Source of the DNA: Oscillospiraceae bacterium
Lineage (GTDB): Bacteria; Bacillota; Clostridia; Oscillospirales; CAG-272
Assembly: GCA_015064285.1 (NCBI GenBank)
Contig: SVSN01000021.1
Coordinates: 1-41,383, forward strand
DNA length: 41,383 nucleotides
Direction of reading: 5' to 3'
The position numbers and the translations under genes were made by a program. Of the stretch, positions 2,374 through 21,447 are shown piece after piece (position 1 is the first letter of the stretch; every line of letters begins with the position of its first letter). The notes beneath the pieces were generated by a model, which searched no databases, was not told the DNA's origin, and worked only from the letters and a program-made list of their open reading frames with translations.

Positions 2374-2390
2374 GATTTTTGTTGCCCCTG

Positions 2391-2517: not shown

Positions 2518-2538
2518 GTTCGCGGCTGGATTCTATGA

Positions 2539-2600
2539 AATTATCAAAACTCACGTTGGCGTTTTCTGATGCCTTTTTTTGTTGGTGAGTTTCGATAATT
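2539..2600. repeat. 16-bp imperfect hairpin inside the right end
   Basis: AATTATCAAAACTCAC (2539-2554) pairs with GTGAGTTTCGATAATT (2585-2600) with one mismatch and a 30-base loop rich in T. It may terminate transcription of the transposase or form part of the structured right end. Confidence 0.5.
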
Positions 2601-2610
2601 CTCTATTCAT

Positions 2611-2726
2611 AATCGCTCTTGAAATATAATCAACAATACCATAGAAAACACACTGAATCGCTGTTTTTTCTCAGCTTTTTGGCGTGTTTTGAGGTATATA
2701 GTTGATTATATTGCGTGGTCGATTAC
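2611..2726. repeat. Right terminal hairpin and 46-bp inverted repeat arm
   Basis: Bases 2611-2656 are the perfect reverse complement of 215-260. The following stretch to 2726 is also a diverged direct copy of the left hairpin, ending GTTGATTATATTGCGTGGTCGATTAC. The right end therefore carries both inverted and direct similarity to the left, as expected if each end is itself a near-palindrome. Confidence 0.75.
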
Positions 2727-2973
2727 CATACAGGAGTACGCATTTAGTATCTGATCTGGTCCCCTGTCACATGGGATTATTCTTTGACTATATAGCATAA
2801 CCTGGAATGTGAAGTTCAAATTGTACCCCGAAAGCTTAAAGCCTGATGATTCGTGTGAATTTCTCGTTGTGATCTTGTGTGTTGGAACTACAGTACAGAC
2901 GAAGAATCACTTAATAGATCGGTTCATATGTGTTATGTTTGGTGGTATTTCACTGGGTAAAAAAACGGTTGGC

Positions 2974-4030: not shown

Positions 4031-4053
4031 GTCTTTCTTTTCTCCAATAGTTA

Positions 4054-4839: not shown

Positions 4840-4874
4840 ATTACATCCTCCTGATGTATGTAATACTAACGCTG

Positions 4875-6071: not shown

Positions 6072-6074
6072 AAT

Positions 6075-7823: not shown

Positions 7824-7858
7824 TGTATTTCCTTTCAGCCTTAGGCATTTACTCTATT

Positions 7859-9748
7859 TCAGTTACAGGATGGCGGAAGAATATCCATGAGCATCATTCC
7901 CATCAGGATTTCCGCTACAGTCCATCCGGTTTCACAGCAGTTTGCCGCCCAGCCCACATCATGGGGACAACCATACGCTTCCTGCAGATCCATATCAAAC
8001 GCACGGCACCAGGCACCGTTTAAAAGCGGATTTTCGGATATCATCTGTGTACGCATGAAAAATGTAACTACATTTTTCCATAACTTCAAAAACATATCGT
8101 CTTTTGTGGCATGATATGCATAAGCAAAACCAACCGGAAGCCAGTTCATGGAATACAGCGAGTCTGTAACGGGATCACCGTTTTCTGTCAGAAGAGAACA
8201 TTCCCCTCTGGATTCACGGCTGCAAACAGCTTTATACCCTGTATCCCACTCTCTGTACCCTCCAAAGGGATGGCGATGTTTTTCCAGATCTGCTGTTACT
8301 CTGTACAGATATTCTCTGTGCTTTTCCTCGCCGGTAACATCATACAGAACTGCCAAAGCAAGAATCAAGCGGCACATTTCTTCGGTTTCACTCTGTTCTC
8401 TGCGCAGTTCCGGATAGAGGGACATCAATGTTTCCAATCCTTTTCTGGCAGTATGCAAATACTCTGTTTTTCCACACTTTTTGTAGGCAAGAAGCAGCGC
8501 AGCCAAATAGTATGCATTATAATGTGCACTGGGTAAGCCATGTTCCTGTTCTTTTCTGGCTTGCAGTTTTTCCGGATTCATTCTCCATGTATCTACCCGC
8601 GCTTCAGCCAATCCATCGCGGCATGTTATACCAACAAGAAAATCCAGACAAGTACAAATATCCCTAAAATACTGTTCTTCCCCCATAAAAAGAGCACCAA
8701 GAAGTGCAGGAATCACAGAACGTGCGGCATCATCCGGGTAACATACATTCCAGGCAGCATCGGTCCAACGCATCATACCCTTGAACGGTTCCTTACGGTT
8801 TATCATATTTTCATGTATGAATACACGGATATTCTCTGCAGTTTCTTTATGGCAGTTGCTGTTCGTCAAAAAACCATACATCGCAAATGCACCTGCCGCT
8901 TCACCACTGCAGTCAGTCCTTACGGCATTTGACCACAACTGTTCGCCATCTGGTAAAATATTATGGCGAAGGCCTTCCCGGATACCGCCTTTTCCGGAAT
9001 CCACCAAAAAGTTTTCCAACCAACCTATTCCTTGTGCAACCGCTTTCTTCCTGTCATTTTCCCATACCGCCGGATCGCTCCAAGGTTCTGCGGAAGGATG
9101 CTGTATCACTTTTTCAGGTAAAAACTGTGGCAGTGTACCAGTCAGGAATCTAGCGATATATTTTACAAGTTTTTCCCAGTTCCCAGTCGGTGCAAACCTT
9201 GCTCTGTTATAGTTATGCAGACAAAACATTGCCATCAGAATATTTTCGCCAAGTCTGAACATCCCAGGTCTGCAGTTCTGCAAGATTTCATTTTCAGGCA
9301 TATCTGTGTGTACATGGGCAATAATCTGTTCCTTATATACAAGCAGCGGTACACTATCTGGAATCTCAAACCATGGCGTTACAGTTCGTCCGCATTCATC
9401 ATCCAGGATATCACCGGTCTCCAGACCTATAATCTCTTCTCCTGTTTTCGGTTTGACATAAACCAGGCGGCTGCGGGTAGTTTCCACAGGATCGGCTGAA
9501 TAAATATCACGGAAAGAATTGATTGCCTGCAGAAACATTCTTTTACCTTTATCCGCTTCCATTTCCAGTTTGCTGCGCAGACGGGCATCGATTGTTTCTC
9601 CATGGGTGCCAAGAATACAGAAAGCATCGTATGCTTCTATCTCCTTTTCCAGCGCACCGGCGAAAGAAACAGTATCGGTTTGCACAGGACAACTCACAAG
9701 AACATTTGTCAGATCATACATATCCTCTGCAATAATCAGCAGTTTCAT
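7859..9748 (-). CDS. Two-domain protein: GATase-like N-terminus plus alpha/alpha toroid
   Basis: This 629-residue protein is first in the operon. Residues 1-165 look like an alpha/beta domain of the ThuA/class-I glutamine-amidotransferase-like type (hydrophobic strand MKLLIIAE, then YDAFCILGTHGE). Residues about 190-629 look like an alpha-helical toroid with conserved Trp, Cys and acidic residues (RTDCSGEAAG, WTDAAWNVCYPDD, HDVGWAANCCETGW). I do not recognise a numbered glycosidase family. The ATG at 9748 is chosen over an in-frame start 30 bases upstream because AAGGAG sits at the right distance. No signal peptide is seen. A glycosidase or epimerase role is inferred from fold and neighbours only. 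Confidence 0.7.
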   Translation of the reverse strand: MKLLIIAEDMYDLTNVLVSCPVQTDTVSFAGALEKEIEAYDAFCILGTHGETIDARLRSKLEMEADKGKRMFLQAINSFRDIYSADPVETTRSRLVYVKPKTGEEIIGLETGDILDDECGRTVTPWFEIPDSVPLLVYKEQIIAHVHTDMPENEILQNCRPGMFRLGENILMAMFCLHNYNRARFAPTGNWEKLVKYIARFLTGTLPQFLPEKVIQHPSAEPWSDPAVWENDRKKAVAQGIGWLENFLVDSGKGGIREGLRHNILPDGEQLWSNAVRTDCSGEAAGAFAMYGFLTNSNCHKETAENIRVFIHENMINRKEPFKGMMRWTDAAWNVCYPDDAARSVIPALLGALFMGEEQYFRDICTCLDFLVGITCRDGLAEARVDTWRMNPEKLQARKEQEHGLPSAHYNAYYLAALLLAYKKCGKTEYLHTARKGLETLMSLYPELRREQSETEEMCRLILALAVLYDVTGEEKHREYLYRVTADLEKHRHPFGGYREWDTGYKAVCSRESRGECSLLTENGDPVTDSLYSMNWLPVGFAYAYHATKDDMFLKLWKNVVTFFMRTQMISENPLLNGAWCRAFDMDLQEAYGCPHDVGWAANCCETGWTVAEILMGMMLMDILPPSCN

Positions 9749-9797
9749 ATTGTTTCTCTCCTTGTTTGGGAAATTCATATCTTATGTTTATATATTT

Positions 9798-9826
9798 ATC
9801 ATAACAATAACTGGGTGTAAAGTCAA
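9798..9826 (-). promoter_or_regulatory. Promoter of the esterase/GH2 operon
   Basis: On the minus strand TTGACT (9821-9826) and TATGAT (9798-9803) are separated by 17 bases, a near-consensus sigma-A promoter. The leader to the ATG at 9748 would be about 43 bases. It faces the AraC gene, so the regulator can act on both directions from one region. Confidence 0.8.
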
Positions 9827-9870
9827 TACTTCGTAAAAAAGCTATATTTTTTGACAATATTTTTTATAAA

Positions 9871-9885
9871 TGGACAACCTAAAAC
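9871..9885 (+). promoter_or_regulatory. Possible regulator site TGGACAAC-N2-AAAAC
   Basis: TGGACAACCTAAAAC lies between the two divergent promoters here. A close relative, TGGACAAACAAAAAAC, sits at 14054-14069 in the other divergent region of this locus. Two copies in matching positions make them candidates for AraC-type regulator binding. Confidence 0.35.
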
Positions 9886-9896
9886 ACCGTAAGATG

Positions 9897-9905
9897 TGAT
9901 ATAAT
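9897..9905 (+). promoter_or_regulatory. Extended -10 promoter of the AraC gene
   Basis: TGATATAAT is a perfect extended -10 (TGnTATAAT) without a well placed -35. Transcription would start near 9912, which leaves no room for a leader before the first ATG and supports the downstream TTG start at 9954. Confidence 0.6.
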
Positions 9906-9911
9906 ACAAGT

Positions 9912-10943
9912 ATGGATCACCAGATTGTTGTTTGCAGAAAGAAGGTACCTTTTTTGAACAATACATCCATCCAGGCACCGGGACTTTCCTGTCACACTTC
10001 TCTTGACAGATGTTTCACACTCATCAATGGGATTGACAGTACGCAGAGTCAACCCTTGCACAGACAAAAATATTATGAAATACAATATGTTGTCTCCGGT
10101 CAGGGATATGTCACTGTGAATCATCAGAAACTGTATTTATCAGCAGGAGATTATGTTCTTCTGTTACCAGGTGACCAGCATAGTCTTAAGGTAAAAGATT
10201 CTATACATATTTATTCCATAGAGTTCTCAGTAGATGGTTCCTTTCCCGGTCCCCCTGTTTATGAAGAAATACAAAAAATCTTTACAAGGCAGGAAACAGC
10301 CGTCATCAATTGTAAGAATAGTTCTCTGAAGTCCATTTTTGATAATCTTTTCAAAGAATGGCAGGATCGCAAGCCAATGTATATTTATAATATAACCCTT
10401 CTGTTCCAACAGATTCTTATACTGTGTTATCGAAATCTGCAATCAGATTCATTATCATATAATATGGAAGGAAAAAATGAAAATTCGATACTGGATACGT
10501 TCTTTGCCTTTCTTGAAGCATACATGGATGATCCGGATGTGCTGACATTATTCGAGAAGAATTATGGATTTAAAAGAGCAGTCCTTACACAACTTGCAAA
10601 GGAAAGATATAATAAAACAATCTTTCAGCTTTATACAGAAAAGAGATTTGAATATGCTCTTAATCTTCTTGCAGACGGCAGAAGTTTAATTTCGGATGTC
10701 GCACGAAAATGTGCATTTGCATCTGTCGCTTCCTTCAGCAAAGCGTTTACAAAACATTTTGGAATGAGTCCTTCAAAGTATGTGCAGACCCGGACAGCTT
10801 CCTATCAGGAAATCATCAGTGATATTTACGCAGACTTTTCCACTTGTTCTGATATATCTTTTATGACTGTTAACACAGATACAAACAAAGAAAAAACAGA
10901 CACCAATGCTGTATACACCAATCCTAAATTACAGTTGCTTTAA
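9912..10943 (+). CDS. AraC-family transcriptional regulator
   Basis: A 343-residue regulator with an N-terminal cupin-like sugar-sensing domain (about 45-125; YYEIQYVVSGQGYV, LLPGDQHSL) and a C-terminal double helix-turn-helix of the AraC/XylS type (about 235-335; ISDVARKCAFASVASFSKAFTKHFGMSPSKY). It lies between the hydrolase operon and the sugar kinase/binding-protein genes and probably controls them in response to a sugar. Start: the ATG at 9912 has no ribosome binding site and sits at the predicted transcription start. An in-frame TTG at 9954 has AAAGAAGG 8 bases upstream and is a serious alternative, giving 329 residues. The family assignment is secure; the inducer is unknown. Confidence 0.92.
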   Translation: MDHQIVVCRKKVPFLNNTSIQAPGLSCHTSLDRCFTLINGIDSTQSQPLHRQKYYEIQYVVSGQGYVTVNHQKLYLSAGDYVLLLPGDQHSLKVKDSIHIYSIEFSVDGSFPGPPVYEEIQKIFTRQETAVINCKNSSLKSIFDNLFKEWQDRKPMYIYNITLLFQQILILCYRNLQSDSLSYNMEGKNENSILDTFFAFLEAYMDDPDVLTLFEKNYGFKRAVLTQLAKERYNKTIFQLYTEKRFEYALNLLADGRSLISDVARKCAFASVASFSKAFTKHFGMSPSKYVQTRTASYQEIISDIYADFSTCSDISFMTVNTDTNKEKTDTNAVYTNPKLQLL

Positions 10944-10965
10944 GATACTGCAAATATTGTATATA

Positions 10966-11012
10966 CAGACCGGATTTTATTTACTTGGTAAAAAAGATCC
11001 GGTCTGTTTTTT
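10966..11012 (+). terminator. Rho-independent terminator after the AraC gene
   Basis: CAGACCGGAT (10966-10975) pairs with ATCCGGTCTG (10997-11006), followed by six T. It lies 23 bases after the regulator stop and separates it from the convergent kinase gene. Confidence 0.9.
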
Positions 11013-11035
11013 GCCAGGTTAGCTTATATACAGGA

Positions 11036-12358
11036 TCATTTCAGGGCGTTGTTTTTCAAACTCCAGATAGCTGCTCCACAGGCAGCTTCTTCGATGCATG
11101 CAGAAATCTGTACGGGCATTCCAAATACATCCGCCACAACTTCCTGCAGCACTGAATTTTTGCGGATCCCGTTACCGGAAGCTGTTATATTCAGGATGTG
11201 TCCGACTGGCATCATCTGAAACATTCCATGCAATTCTCTTGCAATCCCGTACAGTACACCAGCAGCCAGGGATTCCGGTGTCAGATTATTCTCGCCAATC
11301 CCGGTAACTTCTCCTCGAACACATGGATCTGCTCTGGTTCCGCAGAAAGTTGTCGTTACAGAAAGTGCACTGCCGTTTTTGACACCTTCCGCTGCAAGAG
11401 AATTCATGAATTCATATTGCGGCGTATCCGGTAAACCACAAGTAACAGCATACCTGCGGAAAAAGTTCTCCAGAATAGCATAAGCCCTGCCTCCGCACAA
11501 TGCGGAACCACTGAGTAAATACCTTCTGCCATCAAACGGTCGGGATTCCACCAAACCGGATGTATCCTGTACAGGAATTTCTGACAGCATGGAAATCTGA
11601 CTGCCCGTGCCAATATTCACAAGTATCATGTGTTCAGGCTCTTTGACAGATCCGATAAAAGCAGCCTGATTATCTCCTATGGCTACCGTAACAGGAATAT
11701 CGCGGTACGTTCCCAATACACGATTTTCGGCGATCACTTCCGGAAGAATATCTGTATTGATTTCCAGTTTTTCCAAAGCATCGATATCAAAATTCATGTT
11801 CTTATGTTGATACAGTCCCCATGCCGCAGCATTGGTAATGTGCATAACCGGTCGAGCCAGATCGCAAAGCCGCATTGTTATGTAATCCATAATAGTACAG
11901 CAGTAGTAGGGTTCAACAGGAATCTGTCCATGGAGAGTCAGGTGATACAGGGTAGCCAATCCGTAACCTTCCGGCACAACATAACCGGTTTTCTGCAGAA
12001 TCTGTGCACACGTGCTGTCCTTACCCTGTCCGGCTCTGCCATCCTGCCATGTATACAAAGGCGACAGCACAGTACCATCATGAGCTGTACACAGAATCCC
12101 GTGCATCTGGCCGGTTACACCAATAGAAGACACTGTATATTTCTGCAGGAGAGTATCCAGAAGGGACTTAACCTTTTTCCATATCCAGTCCGGAGACTGC
12201 ATATGTTCCCACGGATGTTCAGAAGGAAGTGCTGACTGGTTGGGGACAGTACAGGTTGCCAGAACCGTTTCAGTATGGATATCCAGTACTGCTGCACTGA
12301 TCGTCGTGGTACCGATATCCAGTCCAATGGATATATTGTTTTTTGTGTTTGCATCCAT
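11036..12358 (-). CDS. FGGY-family carbohydrate kinase, sedoheptulokinase/xylulokinase-like
   Basis: The 440-residue protein phosphorylates a sugar with ATP. The FGGY fold is shown by the phosphate loop GLDIGTTT (12-19), the substrate-loop VTGQMHG, SPLYTWQDGR, a second phosphate motif NIGTGSQ and the C-terminal adenosine motif region (TASGNGIRKN). The TGQMHGIL and YTWQDGR segments resemble sedoheptulokinase-like members more than classical xylulokinase, but the substrate cannot be fixed. The ATG at 12358 is chosen because AGGAAAGG lies 8 bases upstream; a TTG further upstream is unlikely. A terminator separates it from the upstream binding protein, and a short palindrome (12375-12392) lies in its leader. 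It would feed the sugar released by the neighbouring hydrolases into central metabolism. Confidence 0.88.
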   Translation of the reverse strand: MDANTKNNISIGLDIGTTTISAAVLDIHTETVLATCTVPNQSALPSEHPWEHMQSPDWIWKKVKSLLDTLLQKYTVSSIGVTGQMHGILCTAHDGTVLSPLYTWQDGRAGQGKDSTCAQILQKTGYVVPEGYGLATLYHLTLHGQIPVEPYYCCTIMDYITMRLCDLARPVMHITNAAAWGLYQHKNMNFDIDALEKLEINTDILPEVIAENRVLGTYRDIPVTVAIGDNQAAFIGSVKEPEHMILVNIGTGSQISMLSEIPVQDTSGLVESRPFDGRRYLLSGSALCGGRAYAILENFFRRYAVTCGLPDTPQYEFMNSLAAEGVKNGSALSVTTTFCGTRADPCVRGEVTGIGENNLTPESLAAGVLYGIARELHGMFQMMPVGHILNITASGNGIRKNSVLQEVVADVFGMPVQISACIEEAACGAAIWSLKNNALK

Positions 12359-12374
12359 AAGTAAAACCTTTCCT

Positions 12375-12392
12375 ATGTATTTCAAGATACAT
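12375..12392. promoter_or_regulatory. Palindrome before the sugar kinase
   Basis: ATGTAT-N6-ATACAT lies just upstream of the kinase ribosome binding site. It could be an operator or a small leader hairpin; no strong promoter is visible around it. Confidence 0.3.
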
Positions 12393-12418
12393 TTCCATAC
12401 ACAATTCAGAATATATAG

Positions 12419-12456
12419 AAAAAATGACCGGGCATTCCGTTTTGGAAAACCCGGTC
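12419..12456 (-). terminator. Terminator after the sugar-binding lipoprotein
   Basis: GACCGGG (12426-12432) pairs with CCCGGTC (12450-12456), with further ATTCC/GGAA pairing inside. On the minus strand the stem is followed by a T run (12419-12424). It lies 18 bases after the stop of the gene ending at 12475. Confidence 0.85.
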
Positions 12457-12474
12457 TTGTTTTATGGTACCTGA

Positions 12475-13947
12475 TTACTGTTTTCCCCCGAAAACTTCGA
12501 TCAGAGTTGCAACATCGGCCTCAAACTTTGGCTGAATGGATTCCATTGTGGAAACAAATATTTTACTGTTTCTGTCAATTGTTTTATACATTTCCTGCGT
12601 GTAGCTTGCCAGCTTCAGCGAAGTACCAATATCATATGTTTTGTTTGCAATTGCAAATCGAAGCATTTCTTCACTGATCTCATCACGTGTATTCCGAATC
12701 ATAACTACGTCCTGAATAACGGTTTCCGTGATTGTATCCACAGAATAATAACCCATTACATCCAGAATAGCAGCGGTATGTTCCGGGTTTTCTGCTGTTA
12801 CGGGAATTGCATAAGTGGAAGCACACATAGAGCCATTAGAAATATAGTTTTCCTGTTCTTCATTGAGTTTCGGGAAAGGGATGATACCAAAGCCATCATC
12901 CATCTTGTCACGCATTCCCTGCAAACTACCGATCGCTCCGGATCGATACATAAGCTGATTACTGCAGAACATAGCATCAGATCCAGCATAGTCAGAATTC
13001 ATATCCAATTCAATAAATCTAACCGCCGGGTTCACAATAAGAGCATCATAAATAACATCGAAGGTATTCACCATCTTTTCGGGATGATAAGAATACGCAA
13101 ACTGCGGACAACCTTCTTCATCGATAACTGTTGAAGGAGCACCTAAATATACCATCATCGCAGGGATGATACCGATAGATGCACTCATCCCAAAGATATC
13201 TTCATTGTCCATTTGTCCGTCCCCGTTCAGATCGGTAACGGCAATTTCCATATTCTGTACGAGTTTGTCTATCGTCCATACGCCATTTCGTACATCATCA
13301 TATGGATATGCCACATTATTTTCATCATGCAGTTTCTTGCTGAAATACATAACTTCCACGGTACAGTCATCATCTATACAGATGTCACCTGTAGCAAAGA
13401 ACTGCTTACTGCCAAAGAAAGTAAAGTTCTCATTGATACCCTTATCCCACCAGGGATTGTCCAGATGGATACTGTCCAGTTCTCTGAGATTCAGCAGAGC
13501 ATTCTGTGTAACCAGCTCATAATTGTTCATCAGATAACTGCATATTGTGTCATAGGTACTGTCACCGGACTGCACAAGGTTCATAACATGAGGGTTGAAC
13601 GCACCACCGGCAGGATCAACAAATGTCCCATTGATAGTGATATCCAGATGTTCTTCTGTAAACATATTACGGTCATATACGGCGAAACTTACGGAAGTTG
13701 TCCCTGTTTCCTCGAATGAATAGTCTACTTCATTTCCCATACCATAGGAACCGCCGGTCATGTAGATGACATTGAAGTCTTCACCGGAGAATTTCTGATC
13801 TGTAATGTTTGCTTTCTTTTCGGTTTCGACCGTGTCAGTTGTCGGGGGTGTTTCTGTTGTTTCACCACTCGTACAGGATACACCTGTCAAAAGAATAAGT
13901 GCACAGAGCAGCATACAAAAATTCTGTTTTTTCTTTTTGTCTTTCAT
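12475..13947 (-). CDS. Extracellular sugar-binding lipoprotein (ABC type), orphan
   Basis: The 490-residue protein has a lipoprotein signal peptide ending GVSC (Cys25), an acidic Thr-rich linker (26-50) and a periplasmic-binding-protein body of the type 1 family. It should bind an oligosaccharide outside the cell and hand it to a permease. An EF-hand-like loop DLNGDGQMDNED (239-250) is embedded in the body, and the segment DNPWWDKGI (163-171) is shared with the two other binding proteins in this window. AAAGGA precedes the ATG and a strong promoter lies upstream. No permease or ATPase gene is adjacent, so its transporter must be elsewhere. The body is only distantly related to the proteins at 21594 and 23214. 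Confidence 0.88.
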   Translation of the reverse strand: MKDKKKKQNFCMLLCALILLTGVSCTSGETTETPPTTDTVETEKKANITDQKFSGEDFNVIYMTGGSYGMGNEVDYSFEETGTTSVSFAVYDRNMFTEEHLDITINGTFVDPAGGAFNPHVMNLVQSGDSTYDTICSYLMNNYELVTQNALLNLRELDSIHLDNPWWDKGINENFTFFGSKQFFATGDICIDDDCTVEVMYFSKKLHDENNVAYPYDDVRNGVWTIDKLVQNMEIAVTDLNGDGQMDNEDIFGMSASIGIIPAMMVYLGAPSTVIDEEGCPQFAYSYHPEKMVNTFDVIYDALIVNPAVRFIELDMNSDYAGSDAMFCSNQLMYRSGAIGSLQGMRDKMDDGFGIIPFPKLNEEQENYISNGSMCASTYAIPVTAENPEHTAAILDVMGYYSVDTITETVIQDVVMIRNTRDEISEEMLRFAIANKTYDIGTSLKLASYTQEMYKTIDRNSKIFVSTMESIQPKFEADVATLIEVFGGKQ

Positions 13948-13999
13948 TTTGCAAGTCCTTTCTCGTTATGGTAATGAAATCATGAATTCTGCTGTCAAT

Positions 14000-14028
14000 A
14001 CTATAGCAAAGAATAAAACAATAGTCAA
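14000..14028 (-). promoter_or_regulatory. Promoter of the sugar-binding lipoprotein
   Basis: Minus strand TTGACT (14023-14028), 17-base spacer, TATAGT (14000-14005). It has the same TTGACT-N17 form as the promoter at 9798-9826. Confidence 0.8.
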
Positions 14029-14053
14029 TCCTCCTAAAAATGATCGACCATTT

Positions 14054-14069
14054 TGGACAAACAAAAAAC
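14054..14069 (+). promoter_or_regulatory. Possible regulator site TGGACAAACAAAAAAC
   Basis: It resembles the site at 9871-9885 and again lies between divergent promoters. Candidate operator for the AraC regulator. Confidence 0.35.
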
Positions 14070-14099
14070 GTAATTGACAAAATATACTTTCTAGTTATA

Positions 14100-14108
14100 T
14101 GTTATAAT
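14100..14108 (+). promoter_or_regulatory. Extended -10 promoter for the propeller genes
   Basis: TGTTATAAT is a perfect extended -10. A TTGACA at 14074-14079 lies 23 bases upstream, too far for a standard spacer. The transcript would have a leader of about 155 bases before the ATG at 14271, with no gene in it that I can support. Confidence 0.6.
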
Positions 14109-14270
14109 ATCAGTAGCATCCTGCAGAGAACAAGAAAATTCTAAATGAATCCGAATAGAATAATGGATATTACAGCAATGGCTCAGCGTTTTTTGGTATT
14201 GGCCAAGCCATGCCGTGTACCAGAGATGTTCTCATACAGGCAGCCCGTAGATATAAAAGGAGAAAAATGT

Positions 14271-15140
14271 ATGGCAAATGATATTTTGATTCCGGGAAAA
14301 AAAGAATTTGACGGTGGACGGGAAATCACAGTAGTTTATTTTAAAGAACGTTGGATCAGTGTGGAATTTATCCGTAACGATCTGATCAACAGTACCCATC
14401 CTTCCGAACATCATGTACAGTTAAGGGATATTGATACCAATGAGATCCTTTCTATAGGCATGTTCGGACTTATCGGACACCATGCTTTTGTCTGGAAAGA
14501 CTGGTTATATATCTTTGCAACCGATCATTCCAACATCTGGATGTCCCGTGTGAAACATTTTGATGCCTGGAGCCGCCCCAAGCTGGTATTGCAATCCGAT
14601 AATATAAACGGTCTCTGGATCAACAACAACACGGTCGTATACAATGGTGAATATTTTGTTATGGGTATGGATCTGGTAGGCGGTCCGTATACCAATACCG
14701 TTTGTTTTGCCAGATCCTATGATTTGAATGAATGGCATTTTATTCCCGGTGCCATATACCGTCCCCATCTCTATACTGCCTGCCCGATCCTGAAATATGA
14801 TAACGGATGGTATTATCTGTTCCATTGCCGTGGAATAGAAAAATGGTTATTCGAGACATTTGTAGGTCGTTCTCGGGATTTGCTGGTATGGGAAGACAGT
14901 CCTCACAACCCGATCTTATCTCCCGATACGAATGAAATACTCCCTCCGCTGGTAGAAGGCGATACCAATGTTTATCATTCCTGTAATTATTCTGATCTGG
15001 AAGTGTATGAACGGGATGGAAAGACCATTGGATATTTTTCTGTAGCAACACAGAAACATGATGTGCAGGCATATGTCCAGCGTGCAGATTATAACGGTAC
15101 CCTTAAAGAGTTCTATGCGGAATTATTTGATGAAAAGTAA
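14271..15140 (+). CDS. Five-bladed beta-propeller glycosidase-like protein
   Basis: The 289-residue protein shows repeating beta-strand and aromatic patterns (FVWKDWLYIFATDHSN, NGEYFVMGMDL, DNGWYYLFHC, YHSCNYSDLEVYERDGK) typical of the GH43/GH32/GH130 five-bladed propeller enzymes. No numbered family can be assigned, and I cannot name catalytic residues with confidence. There is no signal peptide. The start at 14271 is chosen because AAAAGGAG lies 8 bases upstream; an upstream open stretch from 14145 is probably leader. It is followed by a GH32-like gene and likely acts in the same sugar pathway. Confidence 0.72.
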   Translation: MANDILIPGKKEFDGGREITVVYFKERWISVEFIRNDLINSTHPSEHHVQLRDIDTNEILSIGMFGLIGHHAFVWKDWLYIFATDHSNIWMSRVKHFDAWSRPKLVLQSDNINGLWINNNTVVYNGEYFVMGMDLVGGPYTNTVCFARSYDLNEWHFIPGAIYRPHLYTACPILKYDNGWYYLFHCRGIEKWLFETFVGRSRDLLVWEDSPHNPILSPDTNEILPPLVEGDTNVYHSCNYSDLEVYERDGKTIGYFSVATQKHDVQAYVQRADYNGTLKEFYAELFDEK

Positions 15141-15244
15141 GTAAATATTCTGCACTACAGCTTTGTGTTCCGGGTAATAACGAATAGACACATATGGTTG
15201 GTGTGCTTTACACAGTAAAAATTATTGTAACAGGAGAGATCATT

Positions 15245-16480
15245 ATGCTTCCGATTCTTTTGCAGAATACCCCGTGGATGCTCAAATTCACAATGGAAAA
15301 CGATGAAACCCAATTTCGATATGAAAAAGATGGAATACCCGTACTTGAAGCAGTTTGGCAAGATGGAATTCTGACTGTGTCCACTCTGTTTACTGCGAAT
15401 GAAAAACCTTTATGTGTTCGGGGAGAAGCGGCTGTCGGGGATCGGATCCGGTTTATATACCGTCCCTACCGGCTGGAACTGTACTGCAATGATATACTGT
15501 TGGACGAAGAATGGCCATTCGGCGAACCGTATTTTTCAGCAGGAACACTTGTACATTCTACAACAGATCTTTCTCTGGAACCTATACCGGAGTCCGAACC
15601 GGAACCGGATGTAACAGGCAGTTTCACCGGTGCAGAAGGATGGATGCCCGGCGGTGGTGTGTATGTAGGTGACTGTATGCCATTTGCCCACGATAACCGA
15701 TATCATGTGCTGTACTTAAAAGACCGGCATCATCACTGCAGCAAATGGGGTAAAGGTGCCCATCAATGGGAGCACATTTCCACAGCCGACCTTATCCACT
15801 GGGACAGACACCCCATGGCTGTTCCTATTGATGATCCCCTGGAAGGTTCCATCTGTACCGGTTCCTGGATTCTGGAAAAGGGACAGCATCAGCTGTACTA
15901 TACTGTCCGTATGGTGGATGGTTCGCCTGCACCTATTAAGCGTTCCGTTTCAGAGGATGGTTTCCATTATCGGAAAGATACAGAATTCGGCTTTACTTTA
16001 AGTGATGCTTACACCGGTGCTACTGCCAGAGATCCCAAGATTGTCAGAGGGGAAGATGGTCTGATGCATATGTTTGTCACTACCCGGGAAGTGAAAAGCG
16101 GCTGTGGCTGTCTGGTTCATCTGACTTCACCGGATGGGAATAACTGGACAGAACTTGGTCCCATATACATCGCACCGGATGCGGCTGAACCGGAATGTTC
16201 TGACTATATTGCATTCAATGGGAAATACTACCTGATCTTCAGCCTGAATCTGAAAGGACAGTATCTGATTTCAGATGAACCTTTCACAAACTGGAAGGTT
16301 CCCAAAAATCCTGTAATACCCTGTGAATCTGTCCCGAAAGCAGCAGTTTGGAATGGGCGGATACTCTTCGCCGGTTTCAAAAAGATGGAAGGATATGCAG
16401 GTACAATGACCTTTCTGGAAGCTGTTCCCGGCGATAACAGAGAATTCACATATAAACAGGTTGAGGAATCCCAAGCCTGA
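15245..16480 (+). CDS. GH32-like glycoside hydrolase (clan GH-J type)
   Basis: A 411-residue protein with an N-terminal beta-sandwich (about 1-115) and a five-bladed propeller (about 130-400). GH32 landmarks are present: HQWEHISTADLIHWDRHP (173-190), ARDPKI with the RDP triplet (262-264), and EPECSD, where Glu317 matches the acid/base of the EC motif. The usual first block WMNDPNG is replaced by VYVGDCMPFAHDN, with Asp143 as the candidate nucleophile. The sandwich is at the N terminus, whereas typical invertases and levanases have it at the C terminus. AGGAGAG precedes the ATG. There is no signal peptide. Fructan specificity should not be assumed because of the altered first block. Confidence 0.8.
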   Translation: MLPILLQNTPWMLKFTMENDETQFRYEKDGIPVLEAVWQDGILTVSTLFTANEKPLCVRGEAAVGDRIRFIYRPYRLELYCNDILLDEEWPFGEPYFSAGTLVHSTTDLSLEPIPESEPEPDVTGSFTGAEGWMPGGGVYVGDCMPFAHDNRYHVLYLKDRHHHCSKWGKGAHQWEHISTADLIHWDRHPMAVPIDDPLEGSICTGSWILEKGQHQLYYTVRMVDGSPAPIKRSVSEDGFHYRKDTEFGFTLSDAYTGATARDPKIVRGEDGLMHMFVTTREVKSGCGCLVHLTSPDGNNWTELGPIYIAPDAAEPECSDYIAFNGKYYLIFSLNLKGQYLISDEPFTNWKVPKNPVIPCESVPKAAVWNGRILFAGFKKMEGYAGTMTFLEAVPGDNREFTYKQVEESQA

Positions 16481-16637
16481 ACGATATGGCTTTCTGCGAT
16501 ATGCTGCCATATAGCCCATTGTCCTGCTGAGGGAAAGTTTGGTAAAATCAATGATAATGTTAAATGTTACCAGAGGGCGCGCCTCTCCTATGAATATACT
16601 ACTTCCTAGCCCAAGTAAACACTATGTTACCTATTAC

Positions 16638-16652
16638 ATCACACAATGTGAT
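16638..16652. promoter_or_regulatory. Palindrome ATCACA-N3-TGTGAT upstream of the CBM9/DOMON-like gene
   Basis: A perfect six-base inverted repeat lies 25 bases before the ATG at 16678 and overlaps a possible extended -10 (TGTGATAAT). It is a candidate operator. The stretch 16481-16637 otherwise holds only a 7-bp hairpin (16484-16512) and no gene. Confidence 0.4.
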
Positions 16653-16677
16653 AATAAAGAACAGGAGAAAAGAAAAA

Positions 16678-17493
16678 ATGAAAAAGATTCTTGCACTGGC
16701 AATGACTGCAGGTATGCTGCTTTGCTCTATGGCTACAACGATTTCTGCTGCTCCCGATAAGGGTTCTTATGGTGAGGTTCCGCTGTATAAGGGTGGTATC
16801 ATCGTAGATGGACAGATGGACGAAGCATATTCCCTCGGTTTGAAAATTGATGCATCCCACGATTATGGTGAGCCCTGGGCTACTGATACCACTGCTGATA
16901 TTTATATGCTGCACGATGCTGAATATCTGTACATTCTGTATGATGTAAAGAGTGCGTACGATATTGACCCTACGAACTACAACTTCGATAATGCCAATGC
17001 TGACGATCACTGGACAGGTTCCGGTACCGAACTGTTTATCGACTGGGCCAACGATGCCACTCTTGCTAAACTGGGTGGCTGGATCAACGGTCAGTTTTGG
17101 GGATCTACTGGTACTGCCTGTGCAGGTCAGGAAACTAAGTATGTTGCTGAATACAAAACTACTTATGATGTAGCTGCCAAAACTTATATGCTGGAATGGA
17201 AACTGCCCATGCTGGAAGGTGCTGGTATCGGAAGCGAAGTAGGTTTTAACGCAATGATCACTTCCAACAAGGATATGTTCAATGGTAGACAGGAAACCAT
17301 CTGTTGTACCGCACCTGGCCTCGCCAACAATTCTGCTGATTACCTTAATATCACGCTAACAGGTGTAGAAGTTTCTTTACCTGAACCCATCGTTGAAGAA
17401 CCCGCTGCTCCTCAGACCTTTGACATGGGCGTAATCGCCGCTGTTGCAGCTGTTGTTTCCGCTGCCGGTTATGCAGTTTCCAAGAAGAGATAA
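16678..17493 (+). CDS. Secreted CBM9/DOMON-like protein with C-terminal membrane anchor
   Basis: The 271-residue protein begins with a signal peptide (MKKILALAMTAGMLLCS to about residue 24, ISAAP). Residues about 35-235 form a beta-sandwich like the CBM9/DOMON-like sugar- or heme-binding domain (IIVDGQMDEAY, ADIYMLHDAEYLYILYDV, GTELFIDWAND, TYMLEWKLPM). The tail has an acidic Pro linker, the motif APQTFD, a hydrophobic helix of about 20 residues and a final KKR. The tail looks like a cell-surface anchor, similar in layout to LPXTG signals but with PQTFD in place of the sortase motif. AGGAG lies upstream of the ATG. It could present captured glycan at the cell surface. Ligand and anchoring enzyme are unknown. 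Confidence 0.8.
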   Translation: MKKILALAMTAGMLLCSMATTISAAPDKGSYGEVPLYKGGIIVDGQMDEAYSLGLKIDASHDYGEPWATDTTADIYMLHDAEYLYILYDVKSAYDIDPTNYNFDNANADDHWTGSGTELFIDWANDATLAKLGGWINGQFWGSTGTACAGQETKYVAEYKTTYDVAAKTYMLEWKLPMLEGAGIGSEVGFNAMITSNKDMFNGRQETICCTAPGLANNSADYLNITLTGVEVSLPEPIVEEPAAPQTFDMGVIAAVAAVVSAAGYAVSKKR

Positions 17494-17546
17494 GCCCCAA
17501 AACATAAATCAGAGAGCGATACCTTCTTCTTCATAATATTTAATGT

Positions 17547-17574
17547 ACCCCCAGTGAAGGACGCTGGGGGTGTT
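17547..17574 (+). terminator. Terminator after the CBM9/DOMON-like gene
   Basis: ACCCCCAG (17547-17554) pairs with CTGGGGGT (17564-17571), followed by a short T run. Eight perfect pairs and a 9-base loop. Confidence 0.75.
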
Positions 17575-17638
17575 TCATATCACTATTTTGTAGCCTTAAG
17601 TCATTATACTATTCCTTTTCACAGGAAAGAGACTGATT

Positions 17639-17808
17639 ATAAACATTGACATCACAAAAATCTGGCCCGGCGGATTATCACCAAACGTCTCGGACACGGT
17701 GGATTCAGTCATGTATATAAAGTCATCTCCGCCGAAACAGATGCAGTTGCTGCTGTCAAGATCATATCGATCCCAGACAACAACGATATCACTTACTATG
17801 TGATGTGA
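17639..17808 (+). pseudogene. Remnant of a Hanks-type Ser/Thr protein kinase (N-lobe only)
   Basis: From 17671 the frame reads RIITKRLGHGGFSHVYKV, then VAAVKIIS and a stop at 17806. That is a glycine-rich loop (GHGGFSHV) and the VAVK lysine of a protein kinase. Just upstream, in another frame, 17642-17671 encodes NIDITKIWPG, which suits the start of such a kinase after AGGAAAGAG. The expected start codon reads ATA, a short deletion near 17669 shifts the frame, and the catalytic lobe is missing. It is a short decayed fragment, seen directly in translation. It is not expressed as a kinase. Confidence 0.8.
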
Positions 17809-17845
17809 AAATCATGAATAGTGATTTTATCATATCCAAACAAAT

Positions 17846-17877
17846 AAAAAAGACAGGTTTACCCGCCTGTCCTTTTT
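17846..17877. terminator. Bidirectional terminator
   Basis: GACAGG (17852-17857) pairs with CCTGTC (17866-17871), flanked by an A run on the left and a T run on the right, so it can work for both strands. The stretch from here to 18020 holds no gene I can support. Confidence 0.7.
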
Positions 17878-18020
17878 CATTGAATCATAATTTTCAACCC
17901 AGTCCCTCTTCCAACCACCCTCTCCTATATTTCATACCGTAACCCCGCCATTTCAGTTTTATCCACCCCCCATTCCGTCCCATTTTCTCCCCAAAATCCA
18001 CTTTTGCATCCGGCAATTCT

Positions 18021-18368
18021 TTGCGGTATACTGAACCCATCACAGGGAACGGACAACCTGCACCAAAGCCGGGAACGAAAGGACAGACATCATGGTCAAC
18101 AAGCGAACTCATCCGCACCATTGAAGAATTGCAGACTCTGGAACAGCTGATCCGGGAAGCAGAAGCCGAAGCGGAATCTCTGAAAGACAGCATCAAAGCC
18201 GTCATGGTGGAAAAAGGCACAGAAGAACTGGAAGCCGGAACGCACATCATCCGGTATACTACCGTTCTGACCCAGCGGTTCGACAGCACCTCTTTCAAGA
18301 AGAAGTACGAAGAACTCTACCGGGCATTTACCAAACAGACCACCAGCAAGCGGTTTACCATCAGCTGA
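18021..18368 (+). CDS. Small phage-type coiled-coil protein, start region frameshifted
   Basis: The open frame runs from a TTG at 18021. The conserved part starts near 18096 (STSELIRTIEELQ) and ends SKRFTIS, with an Ala/Glu-rich helix and a C-terminal basic motif (FTKQTTSKRF). Similar small proteins of about 90-100 residues of unknown function are found in prophage and conjugative modules, often near SprT-like genes. The TTG has no ribosome binding site. GAAAGGA precedes an ATG at 18092 instead, but that ATG is followed by one extra G (ATGGTCAACAAGC), which puts it out of frame and gives only 10 codons. Removing one G would give M-S-T-S-E-L. The gene looks broken by a +1 change at codon 2, or the base is an error. 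Confidence 0.6.
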   Translation: MRYTEPITGNGQPAPKPGTKGQTSWSTSELIRTIEELQTLEQLIREAEAEAESLKDSIKAVMVEKGTEELEAGTHIIRYTTVLTQRFDSTSFKKKYEELYRAFTKQTTSKRFTIS

Positions 18369-18382
18369 GAGGGGGGAGTATC

Positions 18383-18985
18383 ATGAAAGAGATCAGCAAG
18401 TACAGCCGTCTGGCTATGTATCTGGAAAAGCTCTATGACCGACTGAACGAAGACTTTTTCTCCGGGGAGCTGGAACGGCCTGTCATTACCATCCAGTCTA
18501 CCGCAAGGGCATATGGTCATTATACCCTGTACGATGCATGGAGTGTGAAGGGAGAGGGCTACCGGGAACTGAACATCGGCGCCGGTACATTGGACAGACC
18601 CATCGAAAATGTTCTTGCCACCCTGCTGCATGAGATGTGCCATCAGTACAACGATGTGGTTCTGAATGTGCAGGACTGTTCCAGAGGAGGGACATACCAC
18701 AACAAGCTGTTCCAGAAGACTGCGGAAGAACACGGCCTGACGGTGCGGAAAACAGAGAAGTACGGCTACAGCAGAACAGAACCATCGGATGTACTACTGG
18801 AATGGATTTTGAATCATAATATTCAAGAGATTCAGCTGTATCGGAATGACCTGCCCATGATTCCGGTGGCGATACCCGGTGGAGAGACTTTCGGAATAAC
18901 GGTACATACTGGGAACAAAAACGGATCCAGACGGTATTGCTGTCCGATGTGCGGTATGATCGTCCGGGCGACCAGAGTGGTGTAA
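18383..18985 (+). CDS. SprT-like zinc metalloprotease, zinc ribbon cut by a stop
   Basis: The 200-residue product has the SprT-like domain (about 10-125) with the HExxH site HEMCH (His83, Glu84, His87) and a third ligand, probably His106 (TYHNKLF). Related proteins include SprT and Spartan, which act on DNA-protein crosslinks; phage versions are of unknown role. A C-terminal zinc ribbon begins CPMCG (Cys187, Cys190), but the frame stops with TAA at 18983-18985. The same frame continues past the stop as VICGDCGMDLVEG to 19027, supplying the missing second CxxC pair. The stop therefore looks like a nonsense mutation in the ribbon. A strong ribosome binding site (GAGGGGGGAG) precedes the ATG, 14 bases after the previous gene. 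Confidence 0.82.
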   Translation: MKEISKYSRLAMYLEKLYDRLNEDFFSGELERPVITIQSTARAYGHYTLYDAWSVKGEGYRELNIGAGTLDRPIENVLATLLHEMCHQYNDVVLNVQDCSRGGTYHNKLFQKTAEEHGLTVRKTEKYGYSRTEPSDVLLEWILNHNIQEIQLYRNDLPMIPVAIPGGETFGITVHTGNKNGSRRYCCPMCGMIVRATRVV

Positions 18986-19051
18986 GTGATCTGCGGGGAC
19001 TGCGGAATGGATCTGGTGGAAGGGTAATTGGGGGAAAGATTTAGACTATAT

Positions 19052-19080
19052 AAGGGGGAGCAAAAAAGTCCCCCCTTTTT
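19052..19080 (+). terminator. Terminator after the SprT-like gene
   Basis: AAGGGGGA (19052-19059) pairs with TCCCCCCTT (19069-19077) and is followed by T residues to 19080. It lies 25 bases after the restored end of the SprT-like frame, which supports that longer frame as the ancestral gene. Confidence 0.85.
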
Positions 19081-19111
19081 AGTCAGAATGATATACCACA
19101 GTTCGGATAAT

Positions 19112-19140
19112 TTGACACAGTCCATCTTCTGTGCTATACT
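19112..19140 (+). promoter_or_regulatory. Near-consensus promoter with internal palindrome
   Basis: TTGACA (19112-19117), 17-base spacer, TATACT (19135-19140). The spacer contains CACAG-N8-CTGTG (19116-19133), a possible operator. Transcription would start near 19147 and run into the tRNA-Cys remnant; no gene follows in that direction before the tRNA terminator. Confidence 0.75.
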
Positions 19141-19243
19141 TTCTTACGAAAAAATACAAACCACATTTGGTTTCCAATTTGGTTTCCAACACATTTTCGG
19201 GAGACTGCATACACCTGAAATACCAAGGTATTTCCTTGCGATT

Positions 19244-19315
19244 TCGCCTATAGCCAAGCGGTAAGGCAGAAGTCTGCAAAACTTTTATTCCCCGGTTCGA
19301 TTCCGGGTGGCGCCT
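19244..19315 (+). tRNA. tRNA-Cys (GCA) 3' portion with unpaired 5' acceptor strand; probable att site
   Basis: Positions 8-73 of a tRNA-Cys are intact: TA, D stem GCC/GGC with loop AAGCGGTAA, anticodon stem GAAGT/ACTTT with loop CTGCAAA (anticodon GCA), T arm CCCGG-TTCGATT-CCGGG, acceptor strand TGGCGCC and U73, the cysteine discriminator. The 5' acceptor strand should read about GGCGCTA but is TCGCCTA, which mispairs at positions 1-4. The gene as it stands would not make a normal acceptor stem. The best reading is a displaced 3' fragment left when an element integrated into tRNA-Cys, with the intact copy to the left of this window. A simple tRNA pseudogene is the alternative. Confidence 0.7.
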
Positions 19316-19328
19316 TGGATAACGAAAG

Positions 19329-19355
19329 ACAGTCTCCAATCGGGGGCTGTTTTTT
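19329..19355 (+). terminator. Terminator of the tRNA-Cys locus
   Basis: ACAGTCTCC (19329-19337) pairs with GGGGGCTGT (19342-19350) with two G-U pairs, followed by six T. It is probably the original terminator of the chromosomal tRNA gene. Confidence 0.8.
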
Positions 19356-19381
19356 GTTGCTTTTGGGTGAAAACAGATTCA

Positions 19382-19420
19382 AAAACGGTTTCATCATTTT
19401 TTACTGAGTGAAACCGTTTT
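19382..19420. terminator. Bidirectional terminator between tRNA remnant and SRAP gene
   Basis: A 12-bp perfect inverted repeat, AAAACGGTTTCA (19382-19393) and TGAAACCGTTTT (19409-19420). It serves the minus-strand SRAP gene, whose stop is at 19437, and may back up the tRNA terminator. Confidence 0.8.
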
Positions 19421-19436: not shown

Positions 19437-20075
19437 TCACACGGCTACCGCTTCCGGCTGGCAGCTGTTGCCCCGTTTCAGTTTTTCACGGCTGAAATAG
19501 TCATCGTACAGCCAGTTTTCCAGTTCGTGCTGTCCGAGAATCAGGGGCATCCGGTTGTGGATCGATTCCACAGACAGGGTGGGACGGGTCGTCAGGATAA
19601 CGGCATGCTCCACCCCTTCGAAAACATGGGTCATGCCTGCCAGATAGACCAGCCCCTGACCGATATGGTATTTCTGCTTTTCCGCCGACCATTCGTAGTA
19701 ACCGGATGTAGGTACCGCAACACGGCGGTTGACGACATCTTCCCGGAAAAAACGTTTTTCCATGGCCGTTTCCGAACGGGCGTTGATGACAAGACCGGAG
19801 CGCTGCATTTTAGGAGGCGCACATTCCGTCGGATCCGCCAGTGCACCGGCCAGCGTCAGGCTGATGGGACGGTCGGTTTTGGCTTCCGCAAAAGGATACC
19901 CCCATTTTACGATTTTTGCCCGCAGAAAATAACCGCCTCCATACAGAACCGGGATATCATCTCCCGGAAATACTTCGCTGCGTGTCAGATAACGGGAGGC
20001 ATTCCCCTTTTTCTCCCGTTCGATAATGGCGATCAGTTCTTCATCCTCGATCCATGCCTGGTATCTTCCGCACAT
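19437..20075 (-). CDS. yedK: SOS response-associated peptidase (SRAP, YedK/HMCES)
   Basis: The 212-residue SRAP protein forms a covalent thiazolidine link with abasic sites in single-stranded DNA through Cys2, protecting them. The start MCGRY leaves Cys2 at the N terminus after Met removal. Other conserved blocks are INARSET (97-103), PTSGYYEW (Glu128) and IHNRMP (His173). Length is typical. GAGGGGG precedes the ATG at a good distance. It lies downstream of a Y-family polymerase in one SOS-controlled operon, a common pairing. Confidence 0.95.
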   Translation of the reverse strand: MCGRYQAWIEDEELIAIIEREKKGNASRYLTRSEVFPGDDIPVLYGGGYFLRAKIVKWGYPFAEAKTDRPISLTLAGALADPTECAPPKMQRSGLVINARSETAMEKRFFREDVVNRRVAVPTSGYYEWSAEKQKYHIGQGLVYLAGMTHVFEGVEHAVILTTRPTLSVESIHNRMPLILGQHELENWLYDDYFSREKLKRGNSCQPEAVAV

Positions 20076-20121
20076 GATTGTGTCCCCCTCATAGTTTTTT
20101 GTATCGCAGCCGCCGGATTGT

Positions 20122-20206
20122 GTACGCTGTACATCCTGCAGGGAATATCCGATCCGGCCGCTGGATTACGTACGCTGTACATCCTGCAGGGAATATCCGA
20201 TCCGGC
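20122..20206. repeat. Tandem duplication of the polymerase 3' end (48-bp unit)
   Basis: A 37-base identical block occurs at 20122-20158 and 20170-20206, with a similar preceding 11 bases, giving a 48-base unit. The right copy encodes the last residues RIGYSLQDVQRT of the polymerase, ending in TAA at 20166-20168. The left copy repeats that coding sequence in the same frame beyond the stop. Confidence 0.9.
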
Positions 20207-21404
20207 GGGTGGACAGTTTCCCTACGGCCAGATAACTGCCGTTTGTGACCGCATGGGTGCCGTAACGCTCCCGTATGGAATCCATGGTATTTTCCAGAGA
20301 CAGCAGCCGATCCCGCTTTCGGTGATCCGTGAACAGATCCAGCTGCTCCGGTGCGTTTTCCGTGTCGATGCCGATGGCCCGTACTGTGACGGAACGGAGC
20401 GGCACACGCCAGACATGTTTTCTGCCAAACAGAGCAGCGGCTTCTGCGGCGATCTCTCTGGCCAGCTGTGTGCGGTGGGGCAGCTGACATTGGTATTCCC
20501 GTACCGTCATATCGTTTTCCCGTACCTGTACGGATACGCCGCCGGCACTGAGACGATTGGCCCGCAGTTTTGCCCCGATCTCTTCCGCCAGTTCTTCCAG
20601 CACATACTGTACTTCTGTCTGGTTTACCAGATCCTGTACGGTGGTGGTGCCGTGACCGATGGATTTGATGGGATAGGCTTCCGCCTGCCACAGAACCCGG
20701 GACGTGTCCAGCCCGTTGGCATAGACCCAGAGTACTTTCCCCAGTTTTCCCAGCCAGGATTCCAGATATTCCACCTTCATGCCGGCGATATCCCCGATGG
20801 TACGGCAGCCACGGTAATAGATCTTCTTATATGTCTTCATCCCCACGCCCAGCATTTCAAAAGCCGGCAGAGGCCATACGATTTCCCGGAAGCTGTCATA
20901 AGGGATCTCGGTAACGGCATCCGGCTTTTTCATATCCGATCCCAGTTTGGCGAATACTTTGTTGAAGGATACCCCTACCGATATGGTCAGACCGGTTTCC
21001 GCTTTTACCAGACGGCGCAGCTTTTCTGCAATTTCTCTGCCGGAACCGAACAGATCCCGGCTTGCGGTTACGTCCAGCCAGCATTCATCAATCCCCATGG
21101 ATTCGATCTGATCCGTGAAGCGGCTGTAAATCCGGCGTACCGCTTTGGAATAATACAGATACTCATCATAATGCGGCTCTGCAATGACCAGATCGGGACA
21201 CTTTGTCCGTGCCTGATATATGCTCTCTCCCGTCTGAATCCCGAATTTCTTGGCAATGTTGTTTTTTGCCAGGACGATGCCGTGCCGCTGTTCCGTTTCA
21301 CCGCCCACAATCATGGGAACATCCCGGTATTCCGGGTGCCGGATGCTTTCCACCGAAGCAAAATAATTGTTCAGATCACAGTGCAGTATGGTGCGTGTAT
21401 CCAT
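20166..21404 (-). CDS. dinB: Y-family translesion DNA polymerase (DinB/UmuC type)
   Basis: The 412-residue polymerase copies past damaged DNA. The palm and fingers carry CDLNNYFASVE (Asp10, Glu19) and the catalytic MGIDECWLDV (Asp106, Glu107). Helix-hairpin-helix and little-finger regions follow (to about 345), then the beta-clamp motif QLDLF (354-358). The ATG at 21404 is chosen because a G-rich ribosome binding site is upstream and the conserved N terminus starts there. The upstream promoter contains a LexA box, so induction by DNA damage is expected. The 3' end is duplicated in tandem. Assignment to the DinB or the UmuC-like branch of Bacillota is not certain. Confidence 0.94.
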   Translation of the reverse strand: MDTRTILHCDLNNYFASVESIRHPEYRDVPMIVGGETEQRHGIVLAKNNIAKKFGIQTGESIYQARTKCPDLVIAEPHYDEYLYYSKAVRRIYSRFTDQIESMGIDECWLDVTASRDLFGSGREIAEKLRRLVKAETGLTISVGVSFNKVFAKLGSDMKKPDAVTEIPYDSFREIVWPLPAFEMLGVGMKTYKKIYYRGCRTIGDIAGMKVEYLESWLGKLGKVLWVYANGLDTSRVLWQAEAYPIKSIGHGTTTVQDLVNQTEVQYVLEELAEEIGAKLRANRLSAGGVSVQVRENDMTVREYQCQLPHRTQLAREIAAEAAALFGRKHVWRVPLRSVTVRAIGIDTENAPEQLDLFTDHRKRDRLLSLENTMDSIRERYGTHAVTNGSYLAVGKLSTRRIGYSLQDVQRT

Positions 21405-21447
21405 GCCTGCCACCCCCCTTTGTATACCATAGGCGAACATAAAATCA

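Follow-up and report, generated by a model that had tools for sequence, protein, structure and literature searches.

The stretch of DNA analysed here, 41,383 nucleotides of an Oscillospiraceae genome and called the window throughout, carries a tRNA-Cys(GCA) gene fragment at 19244..19315 on the plus strand. This fragment is very probably the right attachment site (attR) of a genomic island that was integrated into a tRNA-Cys(GCA) gene by a tyrosine recombinase, and the full account developed below also takes in the window's sugar-use locus. Genomic islands inserted in tRNA genes are of a well-known kind. The reading draws on the structure of the fragment, on matching intact copies of the same tRNA gene in the same assembly, including one that opens a complete island, and on a set of related elements in other genomes whose two ends are built in the same way.

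The tRNA-Cys fragment and its intact partners

Nucleotides 1-72 of the fragment correspond to window positions 19244-19315. As the earlier note on this DNA had proposed, the tRNA body is well preserved (judged by its Rfam match) and the 5' acceptor strand has been replaced: nucleotides 1-7 (TCGCCTA) form only three of seven acceptor pairs with nucleotides 65-71 (TGGCGCC), leaving nucleotides 1-4 unpaired, while intact tRNA-Cys copies on two other contigs, C48 and C121, form all seven. ARAGORN made no tRNA call in the window. The Rfam model RF00005 recognised the fragment with 46.3 bits over model positions 5-66, leaving out the ends, versus 64.9 bits for both intact copies. Directly beyond the fragment lies a terminator-like hairpin (19320..19359, plus strand), the tRNA terminator that the note had also pointed out. 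The first chromosomal genes to the right encode an SRAP peptidase and an IMS-type DNA polymerase (19437..21440, minus strand; both by Pfam), in an order that is kept in C121 and in a related genome, G011. By our own reading, the right flank further includes solute-binding proteins, glycosidases and proB-proA-proC.

In a metagenome bin of 134 contigs, G000, which is 73% complete with 4% contamination, the window is contig 37 (C37). When the bin was searched with the fragment, three further strong matches were found, two of them on C121. That contig has an intact tRNA-Cys at 22791 and a fragment at 54064, 31,273 bp apart, and thus holds a 31.3-kb island in one piece. The order there is intact tRNA-Cys, broken integrase, cargo, terminal module and tRNA fragment, followed by the SRAP and IMS genes, and the 5' end of the fragment has been replaced in the same way as in the window. 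Contig C48 has an intact tRNA-Cys and stops 43 bases beyond it; its last 111 bases, beginning at tRNA nucleotide 5, are identical to window 19248..19358 (plus strand), that is, to the core that runs from tRNA nucleotide 5 to 43 bases past the 3' end. This identity, together with matching copies in C121, G011 and another relative, G009, excludes a chance origin of the fragment.

The genes to the left of the C48 tRNA encode a Gfo/Idh oxidoreductase and YgjV (Pfam) and, by our own reading, a sigma factor, and the left flanks of C48 and C121 are 84% identical over 2.7 kb. The right flank of the window matches the sequence beyond the C121 fragment in the same order, with the main pieces at about 77-88% DNA identity. 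The presence of two orthologous loci at this level of divergence (C37/C48 and C121, with frames reading like proB, proA and proC) argues that the bin mixes two related genomes. Both of these genomes have the locus, and in each of them an island ends at the tRNA. The natural left side of the window locus is presumed to be C48, although contig ends separate the two. The note had suggested looking to the left for an intact tRNA-Cys that shares the 3' sequence. Such a gene exists both on a left chromosomal flank (C48) and at the head of a whole island lying between two copies (C121), and it is through these two contigs that the proposal of an attR left by insertion into a tRNA gene was borne out.

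A family of related elements

Relatives of the integrase were found at E<=1e-60 in 8 of 395 sampled genomes of the family, with only the best few candidates per genome scored. In seven of these eight, no more than 1.5 kb separates the integrase start from a tRNA-Cys; in the eighth (G094) the distance is 3.2 kb. A second tRNA-Cys copy closes the element on a single contig in five: C121 (31.3 kb), G009 (10.1 kb), G116 (16.2 kb), G294 (7.7 kb) and G199 (9.0 kb). No second copy was found before the contig end in G002, G152 or G094. In C121, G009, G116 and G294 the 3' part of the tRNA is directly repeated at both ends and the tRNA is intact at one end; for the window itself, the paired copies come only through C48, without physical linkage. 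The acceptor stem is incomplete in six of the seven right ends examined (G152 and G094, with a different tRNA length, stand outside these pair counts). In G011, the right end adjoins SRAP and the left end adjoins the same left flank as in C48 and C121, on two separate contigs. The integrase frame is open in G002 (408 aa), G009 (384 aa) and others, and broken in C121 and G011.

The cargo of these elements is varied. The 10.1-kb G009 element has a full-length integrase, the SprT pair described below, a helix-turn-helix regulator, a protein with an Ig-like domain and a helicase-like protein (ResIII above and DEAD below the Pfam cut-off). G116 carries a type III methyltransferase and restriction enzyme, and G294 has a type I methyltransferase; a Fic protein is encoded in G199, and both G011 and C121 have BspA-type leucine-rich repeat proteins. 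C121 also has a type I-E cas set (cas3, cas8e, cas11e, cas7e, cas5e and cas6e, with an array of nine repeats; L011:1669-9180), in which cas1 was not recognised among the listed frames of at least 100 aa, no profile search having been aimed at cas1 or cas2. Sugar genes are present in the window and in C121 (a weak melibiase match, AraC and GH127). No relaxase or conjugation genes were recognised among the proteins scanned, a scan that covered part of the frames, with the left end of the window's island unassembled.

Wider searches added little. An order-level draw of 394 genomes gave only two with the integrase at E<=1e-100, both already known. A genome-collection search by integrase returned SVTO01000078.1 (Oscillospiraceae bacterium SIG697), which is G002's own record, and two distant matches at 30% and 26%. 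The integrase matched 2718 phage records, none of them at 60% identity or more; the best eight were at 27-29%, and four of those eight were Streptococcus satellite phages (27-28%). Viral contigs contained neither an integrase relative nor a copy of the 30-base right-end junction. There is good evidence for a distinct tRNA-Cys element family in these bacteria. None of the open-licence literature matches listed concerned tRNA-Cys islands in this group, so the novelty of the family is not established.

Probable arm-type repeats and an outward promoter match

Just inside the right end of the window's island are two copies of TTGGTTTCCAA (19167..19189, plus strand; starts at 19167 and 19179, 12 bp apart), which are probably arm-type sites of the integrase. 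They are the only exact copies in the window, where 0.02 are expected under a base-composition model. C121 and G011 have an exact pair at each of their ends, and each end in G009, G116 and G294 has one exact copy plus a second with one or more mismatches. By comparison, no exact copy was present in the approximately 3 kb compared at any of 16 loci in the genus with an intact tRNA-Cys.

An outward-facing sigma70-type promoter match, TTGACA-17-TATACT, lies between the SprT gene and the repeats (19112..19140, plus strand; 11 of 12 positions), 132 bp before the fragment. Matches of at least 11/12 recur at -132 to -143 in five of seven right ends, the window included: the position in C121 and G011 is the same as in the window, and 12/12 matches lie at -143 in G009 and -133 in G116. 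These five right ends count as three lineages, since the window, C121 and G011 are closely related. In shuffles that preserve base composition, matches of 10/12 or better number 0.04-0.38 per 400 bp, and the first 258 bases beyond the tRNA contain no such match in any of six left ends of relatives.

These features suggest how the elements might work. The related elements, as their sequences show, end in a near-complete tRNA copy that lacks a promoter, in this group together with its terminator; the result is an intact tRNA-Cys at the left end and, at the right, a copy without a matching 5' acceptor strand. The core is flanked by the TTGGTTTCCAA repeats, which would serve the integrase as arm sites, and the integrase gene begins a short way in from the left end. 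The promoter match that points outward, 132 bp ahead of attR, may drive the integrase in the excised circle only, a suggestion made because ICEKp1, ICEclc and ICEEc1 use the same layout. As described in passages of PMC13023037, the integrase of those three elements is transcribed in the circle from a promoter at the far end and in the integrated state from the tRNA promoter, with attenuation by stem-loops. By this model, the chromosomal integrase here would depend on readthrough from the tRNA-Cys promoter past the terminator, favouring the integrated state. One complication is that the terminator sits in the shared core, so that it would also lie between promoter and integrase in the circle. 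Most likely, the window's island either carried in the sugar locus (about 3.0-17.5 kb) or acquired it afterwards; the left end of this island, with the integrase, is missing from the assembly.

We also propose, tentatively and with more doubt than confidence, that these integrative elements form an as yet unnamed family within this bacterial family, for which tRNA-Cys is a common docking site, and that they carry whole glycan-use loci, CRISPR-Cas and restriction systems from one species to another, with the only good integrase promoter placed at the opposite end and active only in the circle, keeping the element integrated.

The sugar locus and the step in base composition

The sugar-use cargo occupies 3056..17493 and encodes, by Pfam, GDSL and SASA esterases, a GH2 protein, an AraC regulator, an FGGY kinase, a GH32N-domain protein and a CBM9 protein, along with proteins that have no Pfam family. 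GC content is 43.2% at 1-17832, 48.2% at 17833-19247 and 53.7% at 19317-41383 (52.7% in the C48 flank). GC content at third codon positions (GC3) is 33-49% in 11 left genes, 60-62% in two frames of the SprT module and 58-75% in 14 right genes, so that the left and right ranges do not overlap. Together these profiles place a composition step near 17.8 kb, about 1.4 kb to the left of the tRNA. The note's view that the left side is AT-richer held up, for codon use as well as for GC, but the contrast is smaller than its hand-picked lines had indicated and the step is not at the tRNA, where the note had put it.

Parts of the sugar locus are nearly identical to sequence in G017: 99.4% at 4393-6262 and 99.2% at 6600-12236, 7.5 kb in all. 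By comparison, nine G017 matches fall within 19 kb of right-flank sequence in the window, five of more than 1 kb at 76-83% and four shorter ones at 69-90%, none of them at 99%. This disparity indicates that at least the matched part of the locus moved between species recently, barring misbinning. C92, another contig of the bin, has a 74% identical version within a region of 50.4% GC. Separately, the 3' end of the CBM9 gene (window 17383-17507) recurs at 82-87% in several places of G000, G011 and G017; our own guess is that it is perhaps a shared surface-anchoring tail.

It is likely that the sugar locus lies within the limits of the island and arrived with it or in it. The note's suggestion that the locus belongs to an island whose other end is to the left of the window is thus well supported; it is unproven in that the left end lies beyond the contig. 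Since the composition changes near 17.8 kb and the 1.4-kb module at the end looks unlike the sugar genes, the island may be composite and the sugar locus a later arrival.

A related alternative, which we consider unlikely and which is compatible with the attR part of the explanation, is that the fragment is the true attR of an old, decayed element and that the sugar locus was inserted independently beside it, for example with an IS91-like unit or by homologous recombination. Such an insertion would fit the position of the composition step inside the island, the chromosome-like GC3 of the SprT module, the different neighbour at the left edge of the G017 sugar-gene copy, and the IS91-like unit at 1..2727 (plus strand). 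Weighing on the other side, the C121 island at the same tRNA has sugar genes too, and an Rfam scan of the window for tRNA-type boundaries, the only kind tested for, showed no second one. The IS91-like unit consists of a tyrosine recombinase (402-1256) followed by a Y2_Tnp transposase (1156-2373; both by Pfam) and has inverted repeats at 208-272 and 2599-2663, detected by self-match, with the contig end just to its left. A 92% copy in G017 (L107:5835-8292) has a different context, beside a frame that we read as relaxase-like.

A second alternative is that the fragment yields a tRNA-like RNA from the outward promoter and that the right end is functional, as a source of decoy or regulatory RNA. 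The strong promoter match 132 bp upstream, the preserved tRNA body and the terminator beyond would all suit such an RNA, but the acceptor stem is incomplete in most of the right ends and the promoter position also fits a circle promoter for the integrase; we consider this reading very improbable. A degenerate tRNA-Cys duplicate from local duplication, unrelated to mobile DNA, would explain the well-preserved body but is scarcely credible, being already contradicted by C121 and G009, since the same 5' replacement, arm repeats and outward promoter end elements that start at an intact tRNA-Cys beside an integrase.

The terminal module

Between the sugar locus and attR lies a short module with a small phage-type frame (18021..18368, plus strand; phrog_6244, also phrog_434, RecE-like) and a gene for a 200-aa SprT-like metalloprotease-type protein (18383..18985, plus strand; PF10263, phrog_6361). 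The SprT-like protein has 97-98% amino acid identity to two copies in C121 and one in G011. Its frame stops 14 codons before the ends of those copies and, by our reading, ahead of the second Cys pair in a C-terminal zinc-ribbon-like stretch seen in the relatives; the small frame has no in-frame ATG at the usual start. The earlier note had spoken of decayed phage-type genes, and this description applies insofar as the pair is phage-type, with decay that is only partial. At the DNA level, the terminal module is 93.0% identical to C121 (over window 17840-19373) and 90.7% to G011, compared with 82.8% and 78.1% for the adjacent chromosome. Among phage records, eight matched SprT, at 32-42% identity.

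SprT was considered as a marker for the family and rejected: it is present in 14 of the 395 sampled family genomes, and a tRNA was found at just 2 of 13 further loci (Pro and Lys), with about 1.5 kb fetched per side. One of these loci is within the G009 element, at a distance of 4-5 kb from the tRNA copies of that element. The SprT loci G008 C36 and G009 C201 have no tRNA-Cys and no exact arm repeat. The C121 island carries the module twice (L011:334-1489 and L011:17703-18857; 92% identical), as if two elements had accreted, and a tRNA fragment follows only the outer copy. To the left of the module in the window, a remnant that we read as the N-terminal lobe of a protein kinase (17637..17810, plus strand) contains two in-frame stops, and G011 has copies of part of it (17637-17780), about 83% identical, at three places (C195 and C403).

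The search for an unoccupied site and points of doubt

An unoccupied site joining the tRNA directly to the SRAP gene, which the earlier note had hoped to see in related strains, was not found in 25 genomes of the genus, the window's own included. Only three loci with tRNA-Cys sequence beside SRAP were found (the window, C121 and G011), all of them occupied. At the 16 genus loci where the tRNA-Cys is intact and exact arm repeats are absent, no SRAP match lies on the contig. G017 was rejected as an empty site: its SRAP contig has no tRNA beside the gene, and its tRNA-Cys contig is opposite in orientation to the left-flank genes. There, the tRNA-Cys (L050:4672-4744) is inverted relative to these genes and the left-flank match stops before the YgjV gene, reflecting either a rearrangement or misassembly. 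The note had also held that relatives with the same left and right regions always adjacent would count against an island. In the SRAP-neighbourhood stretches compared, 57 kb in C121, 9.0 kb in G011 and 4.1 kb in G017, the sugar locus is not beside SRAP.

Besides the missing empty site, several observations weigh against the account given here. Some concern the assembly: the bin is a mix of two related genomes, the left end of the window's island is absent, and C48 ends at the edge of the core, so that it could come from an unoccupied strain (attB) instead of the left end of an island (attL). The G017 contigs with the sugar genes are short (5.6 and 3.9 kb), making misbinning possible. The step in composition lies 1.4 kb to the left of attR, and the sugar locus may be a separate insertion beside an older element. 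Outside the genus, SprT-like genes occur without a tRNA-Cys in about 1.5 kb per side, and the SprT pair is no family marker. In G199 the promoter matches at 10/12 positions (-136), and G294 has only a 10/12 match at -294; when 9/12 is accepted, four matches in the window region compare with 2.6 in shuffles. The case for the promoter therefore rests on the near-perfect match and its recurring position. Finally, the second tRNA copy in G199 pairs at 7/7 and is not a clear fragment, and TTGGTTTCCAA is absent there even allowing one mismatch; with an integrase only 37% identical, G199 is the least certain member of the family.

Comparison with known systems

The analysis fixes the right boundary of the island and accounts for the presence of a compositionally foreign sugar locus next to chromosomal genes. 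The recognisable ends, with their core, arm repeats and outward promoter, offer a means of detecting more islands, and of setting their limits, in bacteria that are known chiefly through metagenome bins. Phage satellites and defence-carrying integrative islands resemble these elements in their small size (7.7-16 kb here, and 31 kb in C121), in a tyrosine integrase at the tRNA end and in defence cargo. Unlike the case in phage satellites, no capsid-hijacking genes were identified here, none having been specifically searched for, and the integrase is only distantly related.

Like the attR fragments treated in the passages of van der Gulik et al. 2023 (PMC9897764), the window fragment is a partial tRNA gene left by integration that can be misread in lists of tRNA genes. 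Those passages deal with archaeal Thermococcaceae and database examples, whereas the gene here is a bacterial tRNA-Cys.

Close parallels exist with ICEKp1, ICEEc1 and ICEclc, as portrayed in the relevant parts of PMC13023037. Those elements use tRNA-Asn or tRNA-Gly and have the tRNA terminator displaced to the far end, whereas the elements described here use tRNA-Cys and keep the terminator inside the shared core. They also differ in that no conjugation genes were recognised here in the proteins scanned and that the promoter here is a predicted one. What the two groups share is insertion into a tRNA gene, an integrase located by the intact tRNA, a far-end promoter directed across the attachment site and a terminator-like stem-loop before the integrase. 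This likeness suggests that integrase control of the kind seen in ICEKp1 and ICEclc may occur in Oscillospiraceae-type hosts as well.

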